IMG/VR virus record: IMGVR_UViG_3300028377_000007 | Span: 23,041 to 87,040 of that record | Length of the DNA stretch: 64,000 bases | Source of the DNA: a virus | Strand: one strand, 5' to 3' | Shown here: piece by piece, positions 38,366 through 47,870 of the stretch | Layout of the letters: every line of letters starts with the position of its first letter | Position numbering within the stretch: position 1 is the first letter of the stretch | The notes under the pieces: generated by a model | Database searches by the model: none | What the model saw: only the letters and a program-made list of their open reading frames with translations | What the model was told of the DNA's origin: nothing | Translations under genes and position numbers: made by a program

Positions 38366-39736
38366 TTAAGTATATAGTTTGTAATAATAGTTTTCTTTTC
38401 CGCAAATTGATACTTTTATTTTTTTCTTTTTTATTCCGCCATACATTGATGATTTTTTTTCAATCATTGGCGCATACCCAACAACTCCGATTCCCGACGA
38501 TGATTTAGAGGATTTTATATTTTTAGAAATTAAGAATTCCTGTAAATCGCTTGTGTTATTGCCATAAAATCTAGAGTTAAAAATATATTCTCCGTTGTCC
38601 AACAAATACACAATAGCTCTATTTTTTAATATGTGTCTATTTAATCTGCCGAACCTTCTTGTTTTTTCTGATACTTCGCCGCATATATAAACTCCTTTAA
38701 TAAAAGAAAGAAATATCGGCGCATTAGAATTGCAACCACTACTTGAATAACAGCTCGTCCAACCATCGCCAAGATTCGACATATTTATCTTGTATAAAAC
38801 ATCATTCGTTATGATATACTTTTTATCATTAAATTTATAAAACTTTTGATCTAATTCAAAGTCTTCTAATTCATAAGTTTTTAGAATATATTTTATATTA
38901 TTCTTTTTTCTGGATAAATATTGTTTTAGAATGTCTATCTGTTTTTTTTGTTGTATTATTTTCTTTGAGCTTGTCGGGATTTTTAATTTTGAAAATTCTA
39001 GTAGCCCATTTAAAGAATCTTCATTTTTTTGAAATCTTGCTGCTCGTATTTTTCTTTTTGTTTTTCTTCCAACATGAATTTCTGAATCAACTTTTATGCC
39101 AGTGATATTTCGCCTTCCGTATTTTGAGCTTTGGAAGTGTATTTTCTTTTTATTGGATTTAAAGCCCACTTTAGAAATTATATTTGGAATATTATTTTTT
39201 AAAAATTCAAAAATTGTTTTTTCAGAATGATCTACTAAGAATTTTTCATTTTCACTTTCTTTGTATGAAAAAGATAAATCATCTGCGTATCTTGTATAAA
39301 CAATATCTAATTTATGTTTTTTAATAAACCGCAAAATAGCCCGATCTAATTTCAAGGCTGCTATATTTGCCACAAGTGGGCTTGTCGGCAATCCCTGCCT
39401 CGGCGCTAAGTCTATAAAACATTTATTTATTAAATCGTCGCTTATTAATTGTTTAACCATATTTGGTTTTACCGAATCAAAAAAATCTGTCAAATCAAAA
39501 TTAACAGTGTAATCATATCCTTTGTGGCAAATAGAATTTGTTATAATTGATCTTTTTGGGATAAAGCCGTGAACTATAATGTTCTTTGTTGCCCCTAAAA
39601 TAATCTTTTCTTGCGCGAAAAAACATTCTTCTAGTTCTGAGAGATATTCTTGGTATTTGTAAGATTCAGAACCAGACAATGAATATATCGTTCTATATTC
39701 TCCCTTTGTTTTTTTTGGTATTTTTATTATTTTCAT
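38366..39736 (-). CDS. Retron-like reverse transcriptase with unknown C-terminal domain
   Basis: 456 residues. The reverse transcriptase core has the palm motifs FDLTDFFDSV (residues 80-89), PRQGLPTSPLVAN (112-124) and YADD (150-153). Two retron-type signatures are present: N67-S-I-C-H71 in the NAxxH position and ITG at 211-213 in the VTG position. The thumb region ends near residue 285. A further ~165 residues contain GDGWTSCYSSSGCN, RFGRLNRHIL and NSRFYGN and match no domain I can name. A structured RNA with msr/msd-like layout lies directly upstream, so the enzyme probably makes a short DNA from it. Confidence 0.85.
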   Translation of the reverse strand: MKIIKIPKKTKGEYRTIYSLSGSESYKYQEYLSELEECFFAQEKIILGATKNIIVHGFIPKRSIITNSICHKGYDYTVNFDLTDFFDSVKPNMVKQLISDDLINKCFIDLAPRQGLPTSPLVANIAALKLDRAILRFIKKHKLDIVYTRYADDLSFSYKESENEKFLVDHSEKTIFEFLKNNIPNIISKVGFKSNKKKIHFQSSKYGRRNITGIKVDSEIHVGRKTKRKIRAARFQKNEDSLNGLLEFSKLKIPTSSKKIIQQKKQIDILKQYLSRKKNNIKYILKTYELEDFELDQKFYKFNDKKYIITNDVLYKINMSNLGDGWTSCYSSSGCNSNAPIFLSFIKGVYICGEVSEKTRRFGRLNRHILKNRAIVYLLDNGEYIFNSRFYGNNTSDLQEFLISKNIKSSKSSSGIGVVGYAPMIEKKSSMYGGIKKKKIKVSICGKENYYYKLYT

Positions 39737-39758
39737 TCGCTATTCGCGAATAGCGAAT
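39735..39758. promoter_or_regulatory. Perfect 24-bp palindrome over the reverse transcriptase start
   Basis: The 24 bases are their own reverse complement, centred on TTCGCGAA. The last two bases are the A and T of the start codon. In RNA it would fold to a ten-pair hairpin that hides the start region; as DNA it could be an operator for a dimeric repressor. Confidence 0.75.
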
Positions 39759-39761
39759 TAA

Positions 39762-39944
39762 GAATTTTTATATGCTATAATAACTATATTAAATATATAA
39801 TTAGGCGGAGCGATTAATAGTGTAGAATAATTATATATTTAATATAGTTATTATAACAAAATACATCGTAAAACTTTAATAAGCCGAGCTAGACGATAAC
39901 ATCTAAGGCAATAAAGTCTCCTTTTATTCCATATAAATTTATTC
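39762..39944 (-). ncRNA. Retron-like msr-msd RNA
   Basis: Read on the minus strand. A possible a1 arm (39944-39930, GAATAAATTTATATG) can pair with a possible a2 arm (39774-39762, CATATAAAAATTC) over about 12 base pairs. Between them lie a small hairpin at 39928-39910 (AATAAA/TTTATT around GGAGA), a second at 39905-39890 (TAGATG/CGTCTA with a TTAT loop), a 34-base linker, and a 28-bp perfect long hairpin at 39855-39776. This order (a1, short msr stems, long msd stem, a2, then RT) is that of retrons. A guanosine right after a1 could be the branch point. Confidence 0.7.
39776..39855. repeat. 28-bp perfect inverted repeat with 24-base loop
   Basis: Arms 39776-39803 and 39828-39855 are exact reverse complements. 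The loop (39804-39827) is the only GC-rich part of the structure. It forms the presumed msd stem of the retron-like RNA. Confidence 0.95.
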
Positions 39945-40118
39945 CTTGTTGATTATTTTTAACATCTTGTCCTTTTCTGAAAAAGAAAGCTTACAGTTAG
40001 AATTAATAAATTGCGTATACTGCCAATCTTCCATAAAAACTGGTATTTTTTTAGATAGATCTTTTCTGCCTAGTGACGACAAGAAGATCTTTAATTTTTT
40101 TTGTTTATTTGCTGACAT
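39939..40118 (-). CDS. Small basic protein, 59 aa, next to the retron-like RNA
   Basis: A 59-codon ORF starting MSANKQKKLKIFLSSLGRKD and ending DKMLKIINKE. It is basic at the start and helical at the end. Its stop overlaps the presumed a1 arm, so it may be cotranscribed with the retron RNA. No family recognised. Confidence 0.5.
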   Translation of the reverse strand: MSANKQKKLKIFLSSLGRKDLSKKIPVFMEDWQYTQFINSNCKLSFSEKDKMLKIINKE

Positions 40119-40160: not shown

Positions 40161-40700
40161 TTAACGATATTCTTCTTTAAAAAGTCTCCATTTTTTTGAG
40201 TCGATTTCTTTTTCGCCGCTGTCGATTTTTCTAATTACCTCAATAGCATCTACCACAGAAGAGTAAATATAATTATGTTGAAGCATCCAAAAAATCCAAA
40301 AAGGGCATTCCTTCTTTCCTTCTCCCCAAACAAAGAATATAGGTTTTTGGCATCTGTTAGCCCAAGATAATTCTTCTATTGTACCAATGGTAAAAGTTTT
40401 TTTCTCGAATACGCAAAGAACAAAATCACAGCGATCAATTAATGCTAAATCCTGTCGGCGAATATCTTTATAATCTGCAATTTTTTCATACTGCTCATTT
40501 TCACGGTATTGTTTTAGTAGATCATGTGTTTCGCTACTTTCTTCAATAAATCCTTCGTATGGTCTATTATAATGGTCCCATACAACAATATTCATTTTTG
40601 ATAATTCTTTTTTTATCTCTTGTCTTAATTGTTTGCCCCTTTCATTATCAGACTCCATTGGCCCAATGACTACTGTTTTTGTATTTTTTAATTTGTTCAT
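40161..40700 (-). CDS. Nucleoside 2-deoxyribosyltransferase-like protein
   Basis: 179 residues. TVVIGPMESDNERGKQLRQE at the start, YKDIRRQDLALIDRCDFVLC near residue 76, and TFTIGTIEELSWANRCQKPI near residue 101 match the nucleoside deoxyribosyltransferase fold (GPM, Asp, GTxxEL...KP). Members cut N-glycosidic bonds of nucleosides. A deoxyribosyltransferase-like toxin is the effector of some retrons (for example the Ec86 type), and this gene lies upstream of the retron-like unit. Similar stand-alone phage proteins also exist, so the link is a hypothesis. Confidence 0.65.
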   Translation of the reverse strand: MNKLKNTKTVVIGPMESDNERGKQLRQEIKKELSKMNIVVWDHYNRPYEGFIEESSETHDLLKQYRENEQYEKIADYKDIRRQDLALIDRCDFVLCVFEKKTFTIGTIEELSWANRCQKPIFFVWGEGKKECPFWIFWMLQHNYIYSSVVDAIEVIRKIDSGEKEIDSKKWRLFKEEYR

Positions 40701-41278
40701 TTGTTAAAAGTAAAACCTCTCCATTCTTCTCTAATATTTTTTTCTTCAATAAAAAGAAAATTTGCAGGAATTTTTGTTCCACTCAAAACTCTACCATCTT
40801 TATCATAATAAGGCGTAGTAGAACCTTTCCTTGAGTTACATCTTTTGCAAGTCAAAGTTAAATTGTTAGAAATATTTGTACCATGATTTGATTTTGGATC
40901 AACGTGTTCAATAGTCAATTTGCTTCTAGGAAACTTTCCCCAACAAAGCTGGCAAGTATTTTTGTAATAAATGCATAATTCATGAAAATTATATTCCTTC
41001 TTTCTTGGCTTGCGAAAAAACCTATCAGTAACAGCCGCAACTGTTGGTAACATCCAAACATCTTTCGCGCTTCTGATACATGGCTGATCTTTATGAAAAT
41101 CAACGCCGTTTCCCTCATTCCAAGATTCAAATTCAAAAGGTAATAAATTTTTATCCAAGCCCCTTATTCTATTTCTTAAAAAATGATGAAAGCAAGCTCT
41201 AGCGGTGATCGCGCTTATTGGTAAATAAGCAAAATCAAGCAATAAACACACTCGGTCCTCTGGTTTAACTATTTTCAT
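40697..41278 (-). CDS. HNH endonuclease-like protein
   Basis: 193 residues. The HNH core is CQLCWGKFPRSKLTIEHVDP, GTNISNNLTLTCKRCNSRKG near residues 112-155, with CxxC zinc pairs (CQLC, CKRC). The N-terminal part (FAYLPISAITARACFHHFL) resembles phage HNH proteins acting near DNA-processing genes. It overlaps the deoxyribosyltransferase-like gene in an ATGA arrangement, so the two are one operon, with a promoter-like box just upstream. Confidence 0.75.
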   Translation of the reverse strand: MKIVKPEDRVCLLLDFAYLPISAITARACFHHFLRNRIRGLDKNLLPFEFESWNEGNGVDFHKDQPCIRSAKDVWMLPTVAAVTDRFFRKPRKKEYNFHELCIYYKNTCQLCWGKFPRSKLTIEHVDPKSNHGTNISNNLTLTCKRCNSRKGSTTPYYDKDGRVLSGTKIPANFLFIEEKNIREEWRGFTFNK

Positions 41279-41284
41279 TGTTTA

Positions 41285-41315
41285 GTAATGATGTGGATTT
41301 TTTTTGGTTTGTCAA
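41285..41315 (-). promoter_or_regulatory. Promoter-like TTGAC/A-tract box before the HNH/NDT-like operon
   Basis: TTGACA (41315-41310), AACC, then an eight-A tract; the ATG of the HNH gene is 31 bases from the box. It would drive the HNH and deoxyribosyltransferase-like genes and possibly the retron-like unit. Confidence 0.5.
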
Positions 41316-41326
41316 TGCTAAGAAAA

Positions 41327-41491
41327 TTAAAGTTCCTCAAAAAGAAAGAAACTTTTTGAAATTTCTTCTATTTTACGATTAAAATTTGCAAAACTTGTTG
41401 ATTCTTTATAAGCTTTTACTAAATCTTTTTCTTTGTATTTTTTTATTATTTTAATATCTTTGTTGTTTATTAGATTAAAGAAAAATATCAT
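41327..41491 (-). CDS. Small hypothetical protein, 54 aa
   Basis: A 54-codon ORF beginning MIFFFNLINNKDIKIIKKYK and ending SFFLFEEL. The frame is open further upstream to the IS605-like end, so it may be the tail of a gene cut there. No family recognised. Confidence 0.4.
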   Translation of the reverse strand: MIFFFNLINNKDIKIIKKYKEKDLVKAYKESTSFANFNRKIEEISKSFFLFEEL

Positions 41492-41510
41492 TAGATCTGA
41501 ATCTCTAGAT

Positions 41511-41551
41511 GTGAACTACCCACCCACGCCAGAGGCGATGGGATGGGCTTC
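41511..41551 (-). mobile_element. IS200/IS605-type right end (hairpin and TTCAC)
   Basis: On the minus strand GAAGCCCATCCC is followed by an imperfect GC-rich hairpin (ATCGCC/GGCGTGGG) and ends GGTAGTTCAC. This matches the typical right-end hairpin of IS200/IS605 elements and of TnpB guide RNAs, where the element ends just after TTCAC. No tnpA or tnpB remains; an HNH gene lies where the transposon genes would be. Confidence 0.6.
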
Positions 41552-41619
41552 GGGTTTCATAGAGTGTGCGTTATTACTAACGTCTAATTTCCTCTCCACC
41601 TTTGTATAGTAGATAGTTC

Positions 41620-42189
41620 CTACCTACTCAATCTATTTTCATAGATTAATTTTATATATTTCAGAAAATCTTCTTCTAAATGATTTTTCTTCATTAGGTT
41701 TATGTCTATGTGAACCCATTGAAGATTCTCTATTCTATTATGTTGTTCTGCATCTACAGATAGTGGTATTTTATGGTCAATACTCGCATTCAAACCTATT
41801 GTTAATATCAATCCAGTGTAAGCACATTTATATTCTTGTTTTTCAAGAAGTTCTTTTAATTCTCCACTTCTTTTCATTGTACCTAAATGGTGTTTAGATG
41901 CATATCCAAACCAATGCCTCTCACATAACCCATTGCTATTTTTTAATCTTTTTGTATTGCAATTTCTACAAAGTCCATTTTTTAACCTATTTAATGTTAA
42001 TTCTTTAGCTCTTGTTATATTATTAACTCTGTATTTATCACCTCTTTTTTCTCTATAATCTTTACTTATTAAATTTACACAAGATTTACATCTACCGTCA
42101 AAACCGTCTGCGGATTTTTTACTATGTGCAAAGTTATCGTTGTTTAACAACAGTTTCTTTCTGCACTTATAACATACTTTATTCTCCAT
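41620..42189 (-). CDS. HNH homing-type endonuclease
   Basis: 189 residues. N-terminal zinc-binding pairs CYKCRKKLLL and RCKSCVNLISKDY, then a second set CRNCNTKR, and the HNH region YKCAYTGLILTIGLNASIDH, KIPLSVDAEQHNRIENLQWV near residue 130-165. This is the domain order of phage and intron-borne HNH nucleases. It lies between a promoter-like region and an IS605-type right end, so it is probably part of a selfish element. Confidence 0.75.
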   Translation of the reverse strand: MENKVCYKCRKKLLLNNDNFAHSKKSADGFDGRCKSCVNLISKDYREKRGDKYRVNNITRAKELTLNRLKNGLCRNCNTKRLKNSNGLCERHWFGYASKHHLGTMKRSGELKELLEKQEYKCAYTGLILTIGLNASIDHKIPLSVDAEQHNRIENLQWVHIDINLMKKNHLEEDFLKYIKLIYENRLSR

Positions 42190-43284: not shown

Positions 43285-43357
43285 TGGAGTCCCGTAACGG
43301 AATCTAACCGTGTATCAAGGGTTGCAACCTTGCGCATAAACATTCTGCCAACGAGAC
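43285..43357 (-). tRNA. tRNA-Cys (GCA)
   Basis: G1-C72 pair, discriminator U and encoded CCA. Anticodon loop TTGCAAC in the stem CAAGG/CCTTG. Last gene of the array in the direction of transcription. Confidence 0.85.
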
Positions 43358-43361
43358 TTAA

Positions 43362-43648
43362 AAACTAGCTTGAGATTAAAGCTTTATAAGTAAGATCTTT
43401 AAAAAGATTATTGTTTCCTTTCTTATCCACGGATTTTAGCCCGTATCCTTACACGACTGCCTTTTTAAACTTGTGGCGTTTCAAGCATATCTAAGACTAT
43501 TCTACCGTTTTTATTCTCCGTTAAAGCCGCTAAACCCTAACGAATTTTACTCCACGATAAAACTAAGATTCCTTGTGAGAATACTTAGCACCAAATTCCC
43601 TTTCGAGTGTGGCATTAAGCCGCTTTCATCTTAGATTGGACGAGATTT
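43362..43648 (-). ncRNA. 3' part of a large structured RNA (GOLLD/ROOL-like candidate)
   Basis: No ORF. The base composition is less AT-rich than the genome. Hairpins read on the minus strand: GGC-TTAAT-GCC, CTC-GAAA-GGG (GNRA loop), TAAGTATTC/GAATCTTA, CGTTA/TAACG and ACGG/CCGT. It lies between the suppressor tRNA and tRNA-Cys. It may be one RNA with 43730-44205. Confidence 0.4.
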
Positions 43649-43650
43649 TT

Positions 43651-43722
43651 ACATAATAATTGGGATTGAACCAATATACTATTCCTTTAGATGGAATTGC
43701 TATACCATTTAGCTATATTATT
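43651..43722 (-). tRNA. Amber suppressor tRNA (CTA)
   Basis: Complete cloverleaf: D stem GCTA/TAGC, anticodon stem ATTCC/GGAAT with loop ATCTAAA (anticodon CUA, reads UAG), T arm ATTGG-TTCAATC-CCAAT. Position 1-72 is a mismatch (A-G) and CCA is not encoded. It sits inside the structured RNA region. Confidence 0.8.
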
Positions 43723-43728
43723 TTTTCC

Positions 43729-43845
43729 CTACTGAATGGTACTCGTCCAATCGCTTTCTTCCCTTTTGGAGAAAACTATACGATACCGCCCATTATCCTC
43801 TTCTTGCCGAAGTTTAGACCATACTTCACGAAAATTTCTTTCCAT
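43729..43845 (-). CDS. Possible 38-aa ORF inside the structured RNA region
   Basis: MERNFREVWSKLRQEEDNGR and 18 more residues, ending in TAG just before the suppressor tRNA. The composition is protein-like, but the same bases form hairpins, and the region has several other open short frames. More likely chance than a gene. Confidence 0.2.
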   Translation of the reverse strand: MERNFREVWSKLRQEEDNGRYRIVFSKREESDWTSTIQ

Positions 43846-44205
43846 TTGTATTACCAAGAACCATTTACCTGCAAAGTTTACAGAACTTGATTACCGTTAA
43901 TTGATGCTATCTACTTATTTTGCATCCCTTAGAAATTTGCGGTTTCGCGACTCTCACCGTTGGCCTGAGTCTTAGGATAAATAAATAACTACTTCTATTT
44001 CCATAAAAGTTTAGCTTTTCAGCTTCACAATCTTGGCTTGCGTAAATAACCTTTGGTTTATGACTTCCAAGGCGATAAAGTGTAGGCTTTATCTTTCCGA
44101 TACTCTCATACCGCCATTTTCCTCCACAACTTTGTTTGTTGCTTCAATGGTGGATCTCACGCGACCCGTTTAAAACTGTTAAAGAACAAAATCCTCTTTT
44201 GAAGA
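43730..44205 (-). ncRNA. 5' part of a large structured RNA (GOLLD/ROOL-like candidate)
   Basis: About 475 bases without a convincing gene but with many perfect local stems. Examples are GATAAAG/CTTTATC (44074-44093), AGCT-GAAA-AGCT with a GNRA loop (44013-44024), GACTC/GAGTC, GCG-AAAC-CGC, GATGC/GCATC, CAAC/GTTG and GAAGT/ACTTC. It follows a promoter-like box and an rrn-type boxA, and leads into the suppressor tRNA. GOLLD and ROOL are giant phage RNAs found beside tRNA genes, GOLLD sometimes with a tRNA inside, which fits this position. Confidence 0.45.
44176..44187 (-). promoter_or_regulatory. boxA-like antitermination site
   Basis: GTTCTTTAACAG on the minus strand is close to the E. coli rrn boxA (TGCTCTTTAACA). 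It lies about 50 bases after the promoter-like box at 44239 and ahead of the long untranslated RNA. Confidence 0.55.
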
Positions 44206-44238
44206 TTATGATAATGACTATGACGTTTTTTTTTGCAA

Positions 44239-44262
44239 AGTCAATGCTTTTTTTGAAAAATT
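44239..44262 (-). promoter_or_regulatory. Promoter-like box of the structured RNA/tRNA unit
   Basis: TTGACT (44244-44239) is followed downstream by TTGC and a nine-A tract. The upstream AAATTTTTCAAAAAA block matches the one near 13572. The most likely start of the unit that includes the structured RNA, the suppressor tRNA and tRNA-Cys. Confidence 0.5.
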
Positions 44263-44275
44263 TGTTTTTTTAAAA

Positions 44276-44350
44276 TGGGGCGACTAACGGGGATTGAACC
44301 CGTACTCCAATCGTCACAGGATTGTACTCTACCTTTGAGTTATAGCCGCC
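44276..44350 (-). tRNA. tRNA-His (GTG)
   Basis: Anticodon loop CTGTGAC in CAATC/GATTG. The extra G-1 opposite C73, typical for tRNA-His, is encoded, and CCA is encoded. Confidence 0.88.
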
Positions 44351-44355
44351 ATAAA

Positions 44356-44431
44356 TGGTAGTCCCAACAGAACTTGAATCTGTATCTTCCGATTATCGGT
44401 CGGATGCTCTAACCATTTGAGCTATAGGACT
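44356..44431 (-). tRNA. tRNA-Ile (GAT)
   Basis: Stem TCCGA/TCGGA with loop CCGATAA; position 33 is C rather than U. T arm ACAGA-TTCAAGT-TCTGT, CCA encoded. Confidence 0.8.
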
Positions 44432-44455
44432 ATATTAAAACCATTGCTATAATCG

Positions 44456-44467
44456 GCCAAATGTCAA
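44456..44467 (-). promoter_or_regulatory. Possible promoter before tRNA-Ile
   Basis: TTGACA (44467-44462) lies 30 bases before the tRNA-Ile 5' end, with TATAGC in between. A similar TTGACA/TATAGCAA pair occurs before tRNA-Glu near 45735. Confidence 0.35.
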
Positions 44468-44493
44468 TAAAAAAACCCTTTTTGGCCACTTAT

Positions 44494-44526
44494 AAAAAAA
44501 TAACGGGAAAGATATCTCGTCTTTCT
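44494..44526 (-). terminator. Probable terminator after tRNA-Val
   Basis: GAAAGA/TCTTTC stem, then CCGTTATTTTTTT on the minus strand, 43 bases past tRNA-Val. It would divide the array into more than one transcription unit. Confidence 0.45.
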
Positions 44527-44568
44527 CAAAGTTTGTCCTTTTAACAAACACTTGTGTCCGCTATATAA

Positions 44569-44645
44569 TGGTAGGCGATGTAGGATTCAAACCTACGGCT
44601 TCTTCCGTGTAAAGGAAACACTCTAATCAACTGAGTTAATCGCCC
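44569..44645 (-). tRNA. tRNA-Val (TAC)
   Basis: Stem TTTCC/GGAAG with loop TTTACAC. T arm GTAGG-TTTGAAT-CCTAC. CCA encoded. Confidence 0.88.
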
Positions 44646-44657
44646 ATAAATATTGAT

Positions 44658-44749
44658 TGGCGGATAGTGCGGGATTCGAACTCGCGGGGGCTTTTAAACC
44701 CCATTTCTTTAGCAAAGAAACGCCTTAAACCTAACTCAGCCAACTATCC
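44658..44749 (-). tRNA. tRNA-Ser (GCT)
   Basis: Stem TTTCT/AGAAA with loop TTGCTAA, long class II variable arm (GGGG/CCCC), discriminator G and encoded CCA. Confidence 0.9.
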
Positions 44750-44757
44750 ATTTATAT

Positions 44758-44831
44758 TGGTGCAACTAGAGAGAATCGAACTCTCATACTAGACTTGGCA
44801 AGCCCATATCATGCCTTTAGATCATAGTTGC
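44758..44831 (-). tRNA. tRNA-Gly (GCC)
   Basis: Loop TTGCCAA; acceptor GCAACTA/TAGTTGC; T arm GAGAG-TTCGATT-CTCTC; CCA encoded. Confidence 0.88.
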
Positions 44832-44837
44832 AAATTT

Positions 44838-44922
44838 TGGTGCGGATAAAGAGATTTGAACTCTTACGCCTTTCGACAATAGCTTTTGAAACTATCATGG
44901 CTACCAATTACATCATATCCGC
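44838..44922 (-). tRNA. tRNA-Leu (CAA)
   Basis: Stem ATAGT/GCTAT with loop TTCAAAA, extended variable arm (TGTCGAAAGGCGT), CCA encoded. Confidence 0.88.
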
Positions 44923-44926
44923 AAAA

Positions 44927-45004
44927 TGGAGCAAGATAGGGATTAGGAACCCCTAACGCTCACTTGGAAGGCGAGAACTTTTAACCTATTTAAGCTAATC
45001 TTGC
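44927..45004 (-). tRNA. tRNA-Gly (TCC), copy 1
   Basis: Stem CTCGC/GTGAG with loop CTTCCAA; the T loop TTCCTAAT region is slightly irregular; CCA encoded. Confidence 0.8.
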
Positions 45005-45011
45005 ATAAAAA

Positions 45012-45103
45012 TGGCGGAGAGTGTAGGATTCGAACCCACGGAGGCTTTTACACCCCTTTTGTTTTCAAGACAAACGCAATAACCCAGACTCTGCCAACTC
45101 TCC
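45012..45103 (-). tRNA. tRNA-Ser (TGA)
   Basis: Stem TTTGT/ACAAA with loop CTTGAAA, long variable arm, T loop TTCGAAT, CCA encoded. Confidence 0.9.
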
Positions 45104-45251
45104 AGATATACCCATATAAACCGCCGTTTACTAAACCCAAGGGTTGTGAGCTTGGATTACTTCTTTCAATAGTGCAATTACCCATACCCGAACGCATATC
45201 CTTGATTCGGAACCGAAATTTTTATTAAATTAATTATTTATATTTTTTTTC
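45104..45251 (-). other. Gene-free spacer with stem-loops in the tRNA array
   Basis: No tRNA cloverleaf or ORF. It contains TTCGG-TT-CCGAA, CCAAG/CTTGG and GGAT/ATCC stems on the minus strand. It may be a decayed tRNA or a separate small RNA. Confidence 0.35.
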
Positions 45252-45338
45252 TGGTCGATGCGGCGAGAATCCAACTCGCACTCTTTTTACGGAACCAGAG
45301 CCTAAATCTGGCGGGTCTAGCAATTCCCCCACGCACCG
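45252..45338 (-). tRNA. tRNA-Leu (TAG)
   Basis: Acceptor CGGTGCG/CGCATCG, stem CCAGA/TCTGG with loop TTTAGGC, long variable arm, CCA encoded. Confidence 0.88.
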
Positions 45339-45435
45339 CTTTCTATTTTAAATCAAAGCCTTTTTCTTCGTTTAATTTAATCCACAAAAAATAGTCTGTT
45401 TCGCTAATAGCAAGCTTTAAAGTTTGTTTTTTTGT

Positions 45436-45511
45436 TGGTGCTTGCTATGGGATTCGAACCCATAAACCTCGCATTTTAAGTGCGATCCATAAACCGTTCT
45501 GGTAAGCAAGC
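45436..45511 (-). tRNA. tRNA-Leu-like (TAA) with short variable loop
   Basis: Acceptor GCTTGCT/AGCAAGC and stem TCGCA/TGCGA with loop CTTAAAA (anticodon TAA, UUA codon). The variable loop is only GGTTT, so it lacks the long arm expected for leucine tRNA. CCA encoded. Identity by anticodon only. Confidence 0.75.
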
Positions 45512-45518
45512 TTATATA

Positions 45519-45595
45519 TGGTGTATTAGCCGAGAATCGAACTCGGAACATTTTGCTTGGAAGGCAAACACTCTACCTAATTGAGTTACTAATAC
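45519..45595 (-). tRNA. tRNA-Gly (TCC), copy 2
   Basis: Acceptor GTATTAG/CTAATAC, stem TTTGC/GCAAA with loop CTTCCAA, CCA encoded. Its body differs from copy 1, so the pair is not a recent duplicate. Confidence 0.85.
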
Positions 45596-45623
45596 ATTGT
45601 TTTGTATTTATTATTACAAATTA

Positions 45624-45698
45624 TGGCGTTACAACGGAAATTCGAATTCCGATCCTATAGGTGAAAGCCATAGTGTCCTACCATTAGACGATTGTAAC
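45624..45698 (-). tRNA. tRNA-Glu (TTC)
   Basis: Acceptor GTTACAA/TTGTAAC, stem TATGG/CTATA with loop CTTTCAC, discriminator G and CCA encoded. A TTGACA box lies about 40 bases upstream. Confidence 0.88.
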
Positions 45699-45752
45699 AT
45701 ATTTATTAATTTTTAAAACTTGCTATACTTTTTATAACTTGTCAAGTTTTTT

Positions 45753-45828
45753 TGGCGGGATAGATTGGATTTGAACCAATAACGCCGAATTCTTCAGACT
45801 CGCGCTCTACCGTTGGAGCTACTATCCC
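45753..45828 (-). tRNA. tRNA-Phe (GAA)
   Basis: Acceptor GGGATAG/CTATCCC, stem CGAGT/ATTCG with loop CTGAAGA, CCA encoded. Confidence 0.88.
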
Positions 45829-45838
45829 ATTTTTTAAA

Positions 45839-45913
45839 TGGCTCTGGAGCAGGGAATCGAACCCCGTTCAATTGGTTAACAGCCAATCCGCTCAACCGTG
45901 TGCGTTCACCAGA
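45839..45913 (-). tRNA. tRNA-Asn (GTT)
   Basis: U1-A72 with discriminator G as usual for tRNA-Asn, anticodon loop CTGTTAA in TTGG/CCAA, CCA encoded. One T-T mismatch in the acceptor. Confidence 0.86.
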
Positions 45914-45920
45914 ACAAAAA

Positions 45921-45996
45921 TGGCGGGTATGAGGGGACTGGAACCCCAATTGGAAAAGTAGACAGCCTTCCGCATTACCATATATGCTGCATGCCC
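45921..45996 (-). tRNA. tRNA-Asp (GTC)
   Basis: Acceptor GGGCATG/CATACCC (one mismatch), loop CTGTCTA with a wobble-rich stem, CCA encoded. Confidence 0.75.
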
Positions 45997-46017
45997 AAAA
46001 TTTTAAAATAATTAAAC

Positions 46018-46078
46018 AAGAACAATAAACCTTTTTTCTATATACATTTCAATAAGAGAGTTTTGGTTTATTGTTTTA
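46018..46078 (-). other. 11-bp perfect stem-loop in the tRNA array
   Basis: AACAATAAACC and GGTTTATTGTT are exact complements around a 33-base loop. Too short and lacking tRNA arms, so another small structured RNA or processing signal. Confidence 0.45.
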
Positions 46079-46095
46079 AATTTTTTTTTAAAAAT

Positions 46096-46180
46096 TAATA
46101 ACACAAAGAAGAGTCATGTTATCTAGGATTACAAATCCCGTGCTTAGACCTTTAATATTTTTAAATACTTCTTGTGTTAA
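46096..46180 (-). other. tRNA-like stem-loop element, not a canonical tRNA
   Basis: A terminal stem of 11 pairs (AACACAAGAAG/CTTCTTTGTGTT, one bulge), longer than a tRNA acceptor, encloses a GGGAT/ATCCT hairpin. No T arm can be drawn. May be a decayed tRNA-Thr or a distinct small RNA. Confidence 0.4.
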
Positions 46181-46256
46181 TGGTGGGGGTAGACGGATTC
46201 GAACCGACTGCCAATTGGTTAAAAGCCAACTGCTCGACCACATGAGCTTTACCCCC
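46181..46256 (-). tRNA. tRNA-Lys (TTT)
   Basis: Acceptor GGGGGTA/TACCCCC, loop CTTTTAA in TTGG/CCAA, T loop TTCGAAT, CCA encoded. Confidence 0.9.
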
Positions 46257-46367
46257 TTTTATAATTAATCTGGCTGGAGAACCGAGATGAAAACTCCGTA
46301 ACATTTGTTTCGCCGCCCTTAAAACGGTCCCAGTTCTGCTTCTGGTTTGATTGTCGGTTTTTTTCGG

Positions 46368-46444
46368 TGGAGCCGCATGGGTAGATTTGAACTCCCGACC
46401 TTCTCTTTACAAGAGAGATGCTCTACCATCTGAGCTAATGCGGC
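46368..46444 (-). tRNA. tRNA-Thr (TGT)
   Basis: Acceptor GCCGCAT/ATGCGGC, loop CTTGTAA in TCTCT/AGAGA, T loop TTCAAAT, CCA encoded. Confidence 0.9.
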
Positions 46445-46452
46445 ATAATATT

Positions 46453-46528
46453 TGGTACTCCTATCGAGACTCTAACTCGAAACGCATTGTTCGTAGCAAT
46501 ACATGATATACAATTTCAACATAGGAGC
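46453..46528 (-). tRNA. tRNA-Arg (ACG)
   Basis: Loop CTACGAA in ATTG/CAAT, T arm TCGAG-TTAGAGT-CTCGA, CCA encoded. ACG is normally deaminated to ICG by TadA of the host. Confidence 0.85.
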
Positions 46529-46529
46529 T

Positions 46530-46606
46530 TGGTACGAACGGTGGGACTCGAACCCACATATATACAGCTTAGAAGGCTGTTGCCTCTCCAATTAGACTAC
46601 GCTCGC
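46530..46606 (-). tRNA. tRNA-Arg (TCT)
   Basis: Loop CTTCTAA in ACAGC/GCTGT, T arm GTGGG-TTCGAGT-CCCAC, CCA encoded. Confidence 0.9.
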
Positions 46607-46617
46607 ATAAAATAAAA

Positions 46618-46725
46618 AGCTCTCATAACTCTTGTACGCGCAATACCAAAAGGATATTAACGGAGCAAACATATCCGAGATTATAATTTGTTAAAAGTTT
46701 GTTGATTTCATACTCGATGAGCTTT
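46618..46725 (-). other. Stem-loop element in the tRNA array
   Basis: The ends pair as AAAAGCTCAT with ATGA(GA)GCTTTT, and an inner GGATA/TATCC hairpin is present. No tRNA arms. Same kind of element as at 46018, 46096 and 47130. Confidence 0.4.
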
Positions 46726-46801
46726 TGGCTGGTTAGACACGACTTGAACGCGCAACAAGAGGGTTTGGAAGCCTCTGCTCTACCAATTGAGCTACTAACC
46801 A
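46726..46801 (-). tRNA. tRNA-Trp (CCA)
   Basis: Acceptor TGGTTAG/CTAACCA, discriminator G as in bacterial tRNA-Trp, loop TTCCAAA with a C-C mismatch at 31-39, CCA encoded. Confidence 0.8.
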
Positions 46802-46810
46802 ATATAATAA

Positions 46811-46884
46811 TGGCAGATCTACCCCGATTTGAACGAGGACAAAATGGACCAAAACCATTTGTGCTACCATTACACTATAGATCT
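46811..46884 (-). tRNA. tRNA-Gln (TTG)
   Basis: Acceptor AGATCTA/TAGATCT, loop TTTTGGT in AATGG/CCATT, discriminator G and CCA encoded. Confidence 0.88.
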
Positions 46885-46892
46885 GTGAAAAT

Positions 46893-46970
46893 GGGTGCAG
46901 GAGCGGGATTCGAACACCGCGTCCTTCTGGTTATGAGCCAGATATCCTAGACCAGACTAGACCATCCTGC
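46893..46970 (-). tRNA. tRNA with CAT anticodon, copy 1 (Met or Ile2)
   Basis: Acceptor GCAGGA/TCCTGC, loop CTCATAA in TCTGG/CCAGA. It lacks the three G-C pairs of initiators. The encoded 3' end is ACCCA, one C more than CCA. Confidence 0.82.
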
Positions 46971-46971
46971 A

Positions 46972-47046
46972 TGGTAGTAACGGTATGATTCGAACATACA
47001 ACCTACTGTTAATGAGACAGTCGCACTTCCATTGTGCTACGCTACT
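46972..47046 (-). tRNA. tRNA with CAT anticodon, copy 2 (Met or Ile2)
   Basis: Acceptor AGTAGCG/CGTTACT, loop CTCATTA in CTGT/ACAG, CCA encoded. One of the two CAT tRNAs may be lysidine-modified to read AUA. Confidence 0.82.
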
Positions 47047-47049
47047 ATA

Positions 47050-47125
47050 TGGTGGAGCCAGACGGATTTGAACCGACGACATCTTGCTTGCAAAGCAAGC
47101 GCTCTTCCTACTGAGCTATGGCCCC
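47050..47125 (-). tRNA. tRNA-Ala (TGC)
   Basis: Acceptor GGGGCCA/TGGCTCC, loop TTTGCAA in CTTGC/GCAAG, CCA encoded. Confidence 0.9.
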
Positions 47126-47129
47126 ATAT

Positions 47130-47223
47130 TATCTAAAATACACCCACATCAAAAATATTTTACTATTTCTCGGACTTCGAACCCGATATAGTGTCCCGCT
47201 GAATTTATTTATACACATATTTT
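47130..47223 (-). other. Stem-loop element with 10-bp terminal stem
   Basis: ATCTAAAATA pairs with TATTTTAGAT at the ends; ACTAT/ATAGT and TCGG/CCGA form an inner arm with a T-loop-like GTTCGAAGT. Not a cloverleaf. Possibly a small structured RNA. Confidence 0.45.
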
Positions 47224-47228
47224 AGATA

Positions 47229-47305
47229 TGGTCGCCGTAGTAGGATTTGAACCTACGATCTTTTGCTCCCAAAGCAAACGCGATACCAAGCTACGCCATA
47301 CGACG
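47229..47305 (-). tRNA. tRNA-Pro (TGG)
   Basis: Acceptor CGTCGTA/TACGGCG, loop TTTGGGA in TTTGC/GCAAA, T arm GTAGG-TTCAAAT-CCTAC, CCA encoded. Confidence 0.9.
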
Positions 47306-47386
47306 ATAATAATTAACCCAAGTATAAATGCGAATATAACAGAAACGCCAATCTATAAGTCTTTCTGATCACACTGATTAATTAAA

Positions 47387-47772
47387 TGGTGGAGATAAAG
47401 GGAGTCGAACCCTTGTCTTATATCTTTTTAATATATTTATTTCTTACAAGCTTAGTTTATTTTTAATTTTAAAATTCATATTTAAATAAACAAATAAATA
47501 TAAACTCGATTTTCTATTATGATTATAGACGAAAAAACTCTATAAAAATTTTACTATTCTGATTAAGCACCGCAACAATTAATAGTGATCCTTGTTTTTT
47601 GATGAGGTTTTACCCAAAGCTTACTAAGCTGCGATTGCTACTGGAGCAACTTCATCTTGGAAGCTTACGATTTTGTTGTTATCGCCAACTATGCGTGTTT
47701 TGAACTTTAAAGATGTATCTTTCTGCTTGTAAAATATACCTAGAAAATACAATCGAATCCAAGTATATCCCC
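47387..47772 (-). ncRNA. ssrA: tmRNA
   Basis: The 5' end GGGGATA pairs with the 3' end TATCTCC-ACCA as a tRNA-like acceptor, and the 3' T arm is AAGGG-TTCGACT-CCCTT. Near the 5' end TTGGATTCGATT matches the conserved tmRNA sequence. The tag frame begins GDNNK after a TAGTTGGC context and ends PVAIAA before TAG TAA; it is long (20 codons) with a protease-type AA end. It rescues stalled ribosomes and marks the product for degradation. Confidence 0.88.
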
Positions 47773-47783
47773 AAATAATTTTA

Positions 47784-47870
47784 TGGTGTAGGCAGACGGA
47801 ATTGAACCGCCGAGGGTTTCCCCGACTGTTTTACAGACAGTTGCCACGAACCAACAGTGACCTTGCCCAC
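47784..47870 (-). tRNA. tRNA-Tyr (GTA)
   Basis: Acceptor GTGGGCA/TGCCTAC, loop CTGTAAA in ACTGT/ACAGT, long variable arm (CGGGGAAACCCTCG), CCA encoded. First tRNA of the array. Confidence 0.92.

Follow-up and report, generated by a model that had tools for sequence, protein, structure and literature searches.

The question raised by this locus is whether a large tailed phage carries a retron, that is, an RNA together with a reverse transcriptase (RT) that should copy it into a small DNA, and if so, whether the phage has put this machinery to its own use. The window investigated in this study is a stretch of 64,000 nucleotides, bases 23041-87040 of the 87,040-base IMG/VR virus record IMGVR_UViG_3300028377_000007. 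It has 32% G+C, with nearly all genes on the minus strand, and encodes a DNA polymerase, a DnaB-like helicase, RIIA, NAD synthetase, PNKP, an array of tRNA genes and a tmRNA, and it is a fragment of a large tailed phage. A preliminary description of the sequence alone had proposed a candidate retron, with an RT carrying YADD, NSICH in the NAxxH position and ITG in the VTG position, preceded by a structured RNA and possibly used in phage-phage conflict or against the host. We confirmed the sequence features, and the retron interpretation is supported by our analysis. Handles of the form L009 denote the contigs or loci compared with the window, and the features are collected in Table 1.

Table 1. 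Positions of the retron-like locus, its surroundings and comparison loci.
Sequence	Position	Strand	Feature
Window	38366-39736	-	RT-WxSC fusion protein, 456 aa; residues about 1-255 retron-type RT, about 296-456 C-terminal WxSC domain
Window	38366-38851	-	C-terminal WxSC domain (conserved S..W[TR]SC, RA.V, R.YG)
Window	39735-39758	-	24-nt perfect palindrome ATTCGCTATTCGCGAATAGCGAAT overlapping the RT start codon; possible operator or translational control of RT synthesis
Window	39760-39775	-	candidate a2 arm
Window	39776-39855	-	msd-type hairpin, 28-bp perfect stem, 24-nt loop; predicted template for msDNA
Window	39872-39920	-	msr-type compound hairpin; its tip TTAGATG-TTAT-CGTCTAG (39889-39906) corresponds to the UUU-loop hairpin of relatives
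Window	39930-39947	-	candidate a1 arm; candidate branch G just after it (39930 or 39929, inferred)
Window	39942-40118	-	small ORF (59 aa) that ends inside a1
Window	40161-40700	-	NDT-like protein, upstream of the ncRNA
Window	40161-42189	-	NDT-like protein and two HNH endonuclease genes (one above, one below the Pfam cut-off); may mark an insertion hot spot
Window	43285-47870	-	array of 27 tRNA genes (counting the one inside GOLLD) and a tmRNA with tag GDNNKIVSFQDEVAPVAIAA
Window	43367-43793	-	GOLLD RNA (161.6 bits)
Window	43650-43723		tRNA-like gene with anticodon CUA, overlapped by the GOLLD RNA; possible amber suppressor (only 4 of 56 checked ORFs end in TAG)
L018	3658-4962		CsrA-like ORF and unknown 196-aa gene between the msr-like RNA and the RT
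L172	2966-3501		sequence upstream of the RT that looks like two retron ncRNAs in tandem
L208	1753-4182		WxSC-domain protein beside an M20-type peptidase
L209	271-2519		WxSC-domain protein beside an M20-type peptidase
L210	489-2876		WxSC-domain protein beside an M20-type peptidase

With reference to the protein, it can be observed that its relatives by profile, fold and phylogeny are retron RTs. In PADLOC it matches retron RT families, led by types XI, XIII, XII and III-A at 1e-37 to 1e-34, though most of them match only part of the protein, chiefly residues about 50-250, and Pfam recognizes RVT_1 only. All 12 sequence hits in the PDB are retron RTs, including Ec86/Eco1 (phmmer 4e-13). The AlphaFold model has pLDDT above 90 over most of the RT and its best 18 Foldseek hits are retron RTs, with group II, DRT, Abi and DGR structures coming later. 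The NCBIfam retron models match at 1e-30 to 1e-33, but far under their cut-offs, against 1.3e-8 for the group II model TIGR04416. The window displays NSICH instead of the NAxxH of region X, which speaks against a retron, and ITG instead of the VTG that starts region Y (PMC6868368); most of the clade members checked have NAxxH and ITG/VTG, and validated retrons also show single substitutions in these motifs.

To place the RT, relatives were mined from IMG/VR and GTDB genomes. Single-protein scans of viral and genome contigs found nothing, whereas alignment-based scans brought relatives. In a 160-row tree, the window RT falls in a 23-row clade with support 99, comprising the window, 19 rows of viral contigs and three bacterial contigs from Pseudomonadota. 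A 57-row tree under a mixture model, with group II RTs as outgroup, gives support 100 for the 15 clade rows used and separates retron from group II RTs at 99. The last scan shows a gap after about 19 viral contigs and adds one, L221, on a 170-kb contig; the clade amounts to about 21 phage contigs plus three bacterial contigs. Most clade members are 30-45% identical and no close relative of this very locus was at hand; no phage in the INPHARED set carries a close relative (best 34% identity). RTs of this clade can be short (243-263 aa in L089, L091 and L012), with the signature TR..RRKLRAA.HQ...GL.EW.KLK.P. Comparatively, five RTs from other retron branches score 380-630 bits to their best PADLOC type, while clade members score about 80-155 bits to many types with no dominant one. 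The lineage is therefore untyped by the PADLOC and NCBIfam models, and it is mostly phage-borne.

Upstream of the RT, on the same strand, the sequence folds with z = -5.3 over 264 nt and z = -7.3 for the best 170-nt window. The 28-bp perfect hairpin is the only one with arms of 14 bp or more and a loop of 3-60 nt in the 64 kb, whereas five Markov-1 sequences of the same size reach 12-13 bp. Two details differ from the preliminary description: what it took as two short hairpins fold as one compound hairpin around 39919-39872, and the matching a1 and a2 arms it noted form a stem of 14 pairs that is not better than shuffled flanks taken alone (96 of 1000 shuffles as low), and gains weight only from relatives. 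Rfam has no retron match at this place.

The relatives give the support that this locus alone cannot. A hairpin with a loop UUU, AUU or UUAU, closed by UG..CG or CG..CG, lies 138-173 nt before the RT in the window (UUAU loop), L009, L011, L013, L089, L091 and L122, and elsewhere in L010 (just after the RT), L014, L017 and L018; UUU or AUU loops were seen in 11 relatives. In 12 aligned hairpins, 93% of cells pair, with 11 double-change cells (0 of 500 shuffles reaching that), and the third pair occurs as G-C, A-U, C-G and U-A with no break. Four of these rows were chosen with a pattern that favours pairing, which inflates the count, while the other eight were first noticed by position and loop motif. 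Moreover, L013 has an a1/a2 stem of 30 pairs (0/1000 shuffles), with 2/1000 for L122 and 11/1000 for L017, though the stems tested in L009, L010, L011, L018 and L091 are not significant. L122 and L173 share a consensus of 55 pairs with 6 compensatory changes and none broken. Region Y of the Ec86 RT is known to bind an msr stem with a UUU loop (PMC6868368). Nevertheless, several clade members (L015, L016, L019-L022 and L024) show no clear msr near the RT. The content of L018 suggests that the cargo of these phage retrons may vary.

The preliminary description noted that the RT is unusually long but did not see that the extra length is a separate domain that large phages also use elsewhere. This C-terminal domain, called WxSC here, has no Pfam, PHROG or PDB sequence match. 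It is also found at the end of the RTs of the phage contigs L009, L010 and L013, and is a separate 286-aa protein directly after a retron RT in the bacterial contigs L122/L123 and in two loci of another genome, L172 and L173. The L122/L123 RT lies outside the phage clade, so the link arose more than once or was exchanged. A scan with WxSC alone returned only L010, and no WxSC was found in 369 genomes of the class of the L089 host. Distant relatives are stand-alone phage proteins, in Cellulophaga phages, Thermus phage TSP4 (QAY18141) and phages of 634-735 kb, in which WxSC-family proteins match at 15, 11, 8 and 6 places (L205; records LR756501, LR756504, LR745206, LR756502), the 15 places being in one 735-kb phage. 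These proteins, such as phi38:1 gp037, share the conserved SC, RA.V and R-x-Y positions, but have no RT fused and differ in their N-terminal parts. An M20-type peptidase lies beside the domain in phi38:1 (gp038, annotated PF01546), TSP4, one 634-kb phage, L010, L122, L172 and L173, with weak PepT-like hits; the pair in L208, L209, L210, L010, L122, L172 and L173 is a conserved uncharacterised two-gene module in unrelated phages and retron loci. The window lacks this peptidase, and only chance-level hits were obtained in the 87-kb record. No enzymatic fold could be assigned to WxSC with confidence; Foldseek only hints at a GNAT-like core, not significantly (best PDB hit, a GNAT, E 0.07).

Taken as a whole, the locus is best explained, with fair confidence, as a two-part retron of one ncRNA and one fused protein carried by a large tailed phage. 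While the retron ancestry of the RT, the RNA anatomy with support from relatives and the repeated physical linkage of WxSC to retron RTs rest on our data, the working is inferred from retron biology: the RT part would bind the UUU-type msr hairpin, prime from a guanosine just 3' of a1 and copy the msd hairpin into a short msDNA of about 80-95 nt that stays attached to the RNA, and the resulting RNP would hold the WxSC domain in check, as in RT-effector fusion retrons of types I-C, XI and XII. When the msDNA or RNP is disturbed during infection, most plausibly by a rival phage or by a host defence, the WxSC domain would act. We read WxSC as the effector or output domain, although the stand-alone phage relatives that we looked at are not retron-linked, so it need not be a toxin. 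For a phage, the likeliest benefit is exclusion of rivals or resistance to a host defence, but use in phage-phage conflict remains a conjecture.

A serious, if more tentative, alternative is that the retron makes msDNA but serves phage biology or counter-defence rather than a toxin programme, with the msDNA acting as a decoy or sensor for host ssDNA-handling proteins or host retrons, or timing a phage-encoded WxSC/M20 activity during infection. The clade sits almost only on phage contigs and WxSC is a domain of large phages themselves, which looks like a phage function and not a defence-island toxin; yet known retrons with a fused C-terminal domain (types I-C, XI and XII) are abortive-infection systems, and there is no direct evidence for a decoy or timing role. 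It is very unlikely that the locus is a type II-A-like retron with the NDT-like protein as effector. Though that protein scores just under the Pfam cut-off for nucleoside 2-deoxyribosyltransferase (28.3 against 28.8 bits), lies on the same strand just upstream, and effectors of the NDT type generally go with type II-A retrons, no PADLOC NDT effector model matches it (only an unrelated hit at 0.023), the RT does not type as II-A, no such gene was seen beside the RT of the nearest relative L009, and such proteins are probably common in large phages.

Least likely of all is a DGR, group II intron or Abi/DRT-type enzyme beside an unrelated element such as a terminator or recombination site. All RTs share a core, the hairpin is AT-rich and the group II model gives a weak hit, but the profile, structure and tree evidence places the RT with retrons, the ncRNA position, loop type and covariation recur in relatives, and no terminator-like site was found. 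DGR and Abi RTs were compared by profile and fold only and not in the tree; a DGR structure came only at Foldseek rank 35, without a search for TR/VR repeats. The two observations named in the preliminary description as able to overturn the retron reading, an RT grouping with DGR, Abi or group II intron clades and a lack of covariation in homologous loci, were thus not encountered within these comparisons.

In comparison with known systems, the fusion retrons of type I-C (Ec67/Eco2 RT-Toprim), XI (RT-protease) and XII (RT-TIR) likewise consist of a single protein of retron RT plus a C-terminal domain working with an ncRNA, but their C-terminal domain is different and the RT clade of the window is separate from the typed references. 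Ec86/Eco1 (type II-A) shares the msr hairpin with a UUU-type loop, the long msd hairpin, YADD, and the X and Y regions (with NSICH and ITG in the window), while the window differs in a shorter RT N-terminus, the WxSC fusion and the absence of a PADLOC NDT effector. Retrons on viral genomes have been noted before, in Pf filamentous phages (PfAC01, PMC11878078), a Vibrio inovirus (PQ189325) and three cold-seep viruses (PMC10504277); those of the filamentous phages are annotated with known effectors (St85-type effector; type I-A ATPase and PtuB) and show only about 28% identity over half of the RT. No report of this RT lineage or of the WxSC fusion was found in a literature survey that was incomplete.

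Retrons are known as bacterial anti-phage systems, and here the retron machinery appears to have been taken over by viruses. It is possible, though slightly less likely than not, that phages have coupled retron msDNA sensing to a phage-specific effector module (WxSC, often with an M20-type peptidase) used against rival phages or host defences, the association having arisen at least twice, by fusion in the phage clade and as separate genes beside a different retron RT in bacteria. A well-supported RT lineage found almost only on tailed-phage contigs, with its own ncRNAs and a phage-type output domain, would show that phages turned this machinery to their own use. It would give a direct test of what retrons do for a virus, add a retron type with RTs as short as about 243-263 aa, and put a testable role on an uncharacterised domain that is multicopy in some of the largest known phages.
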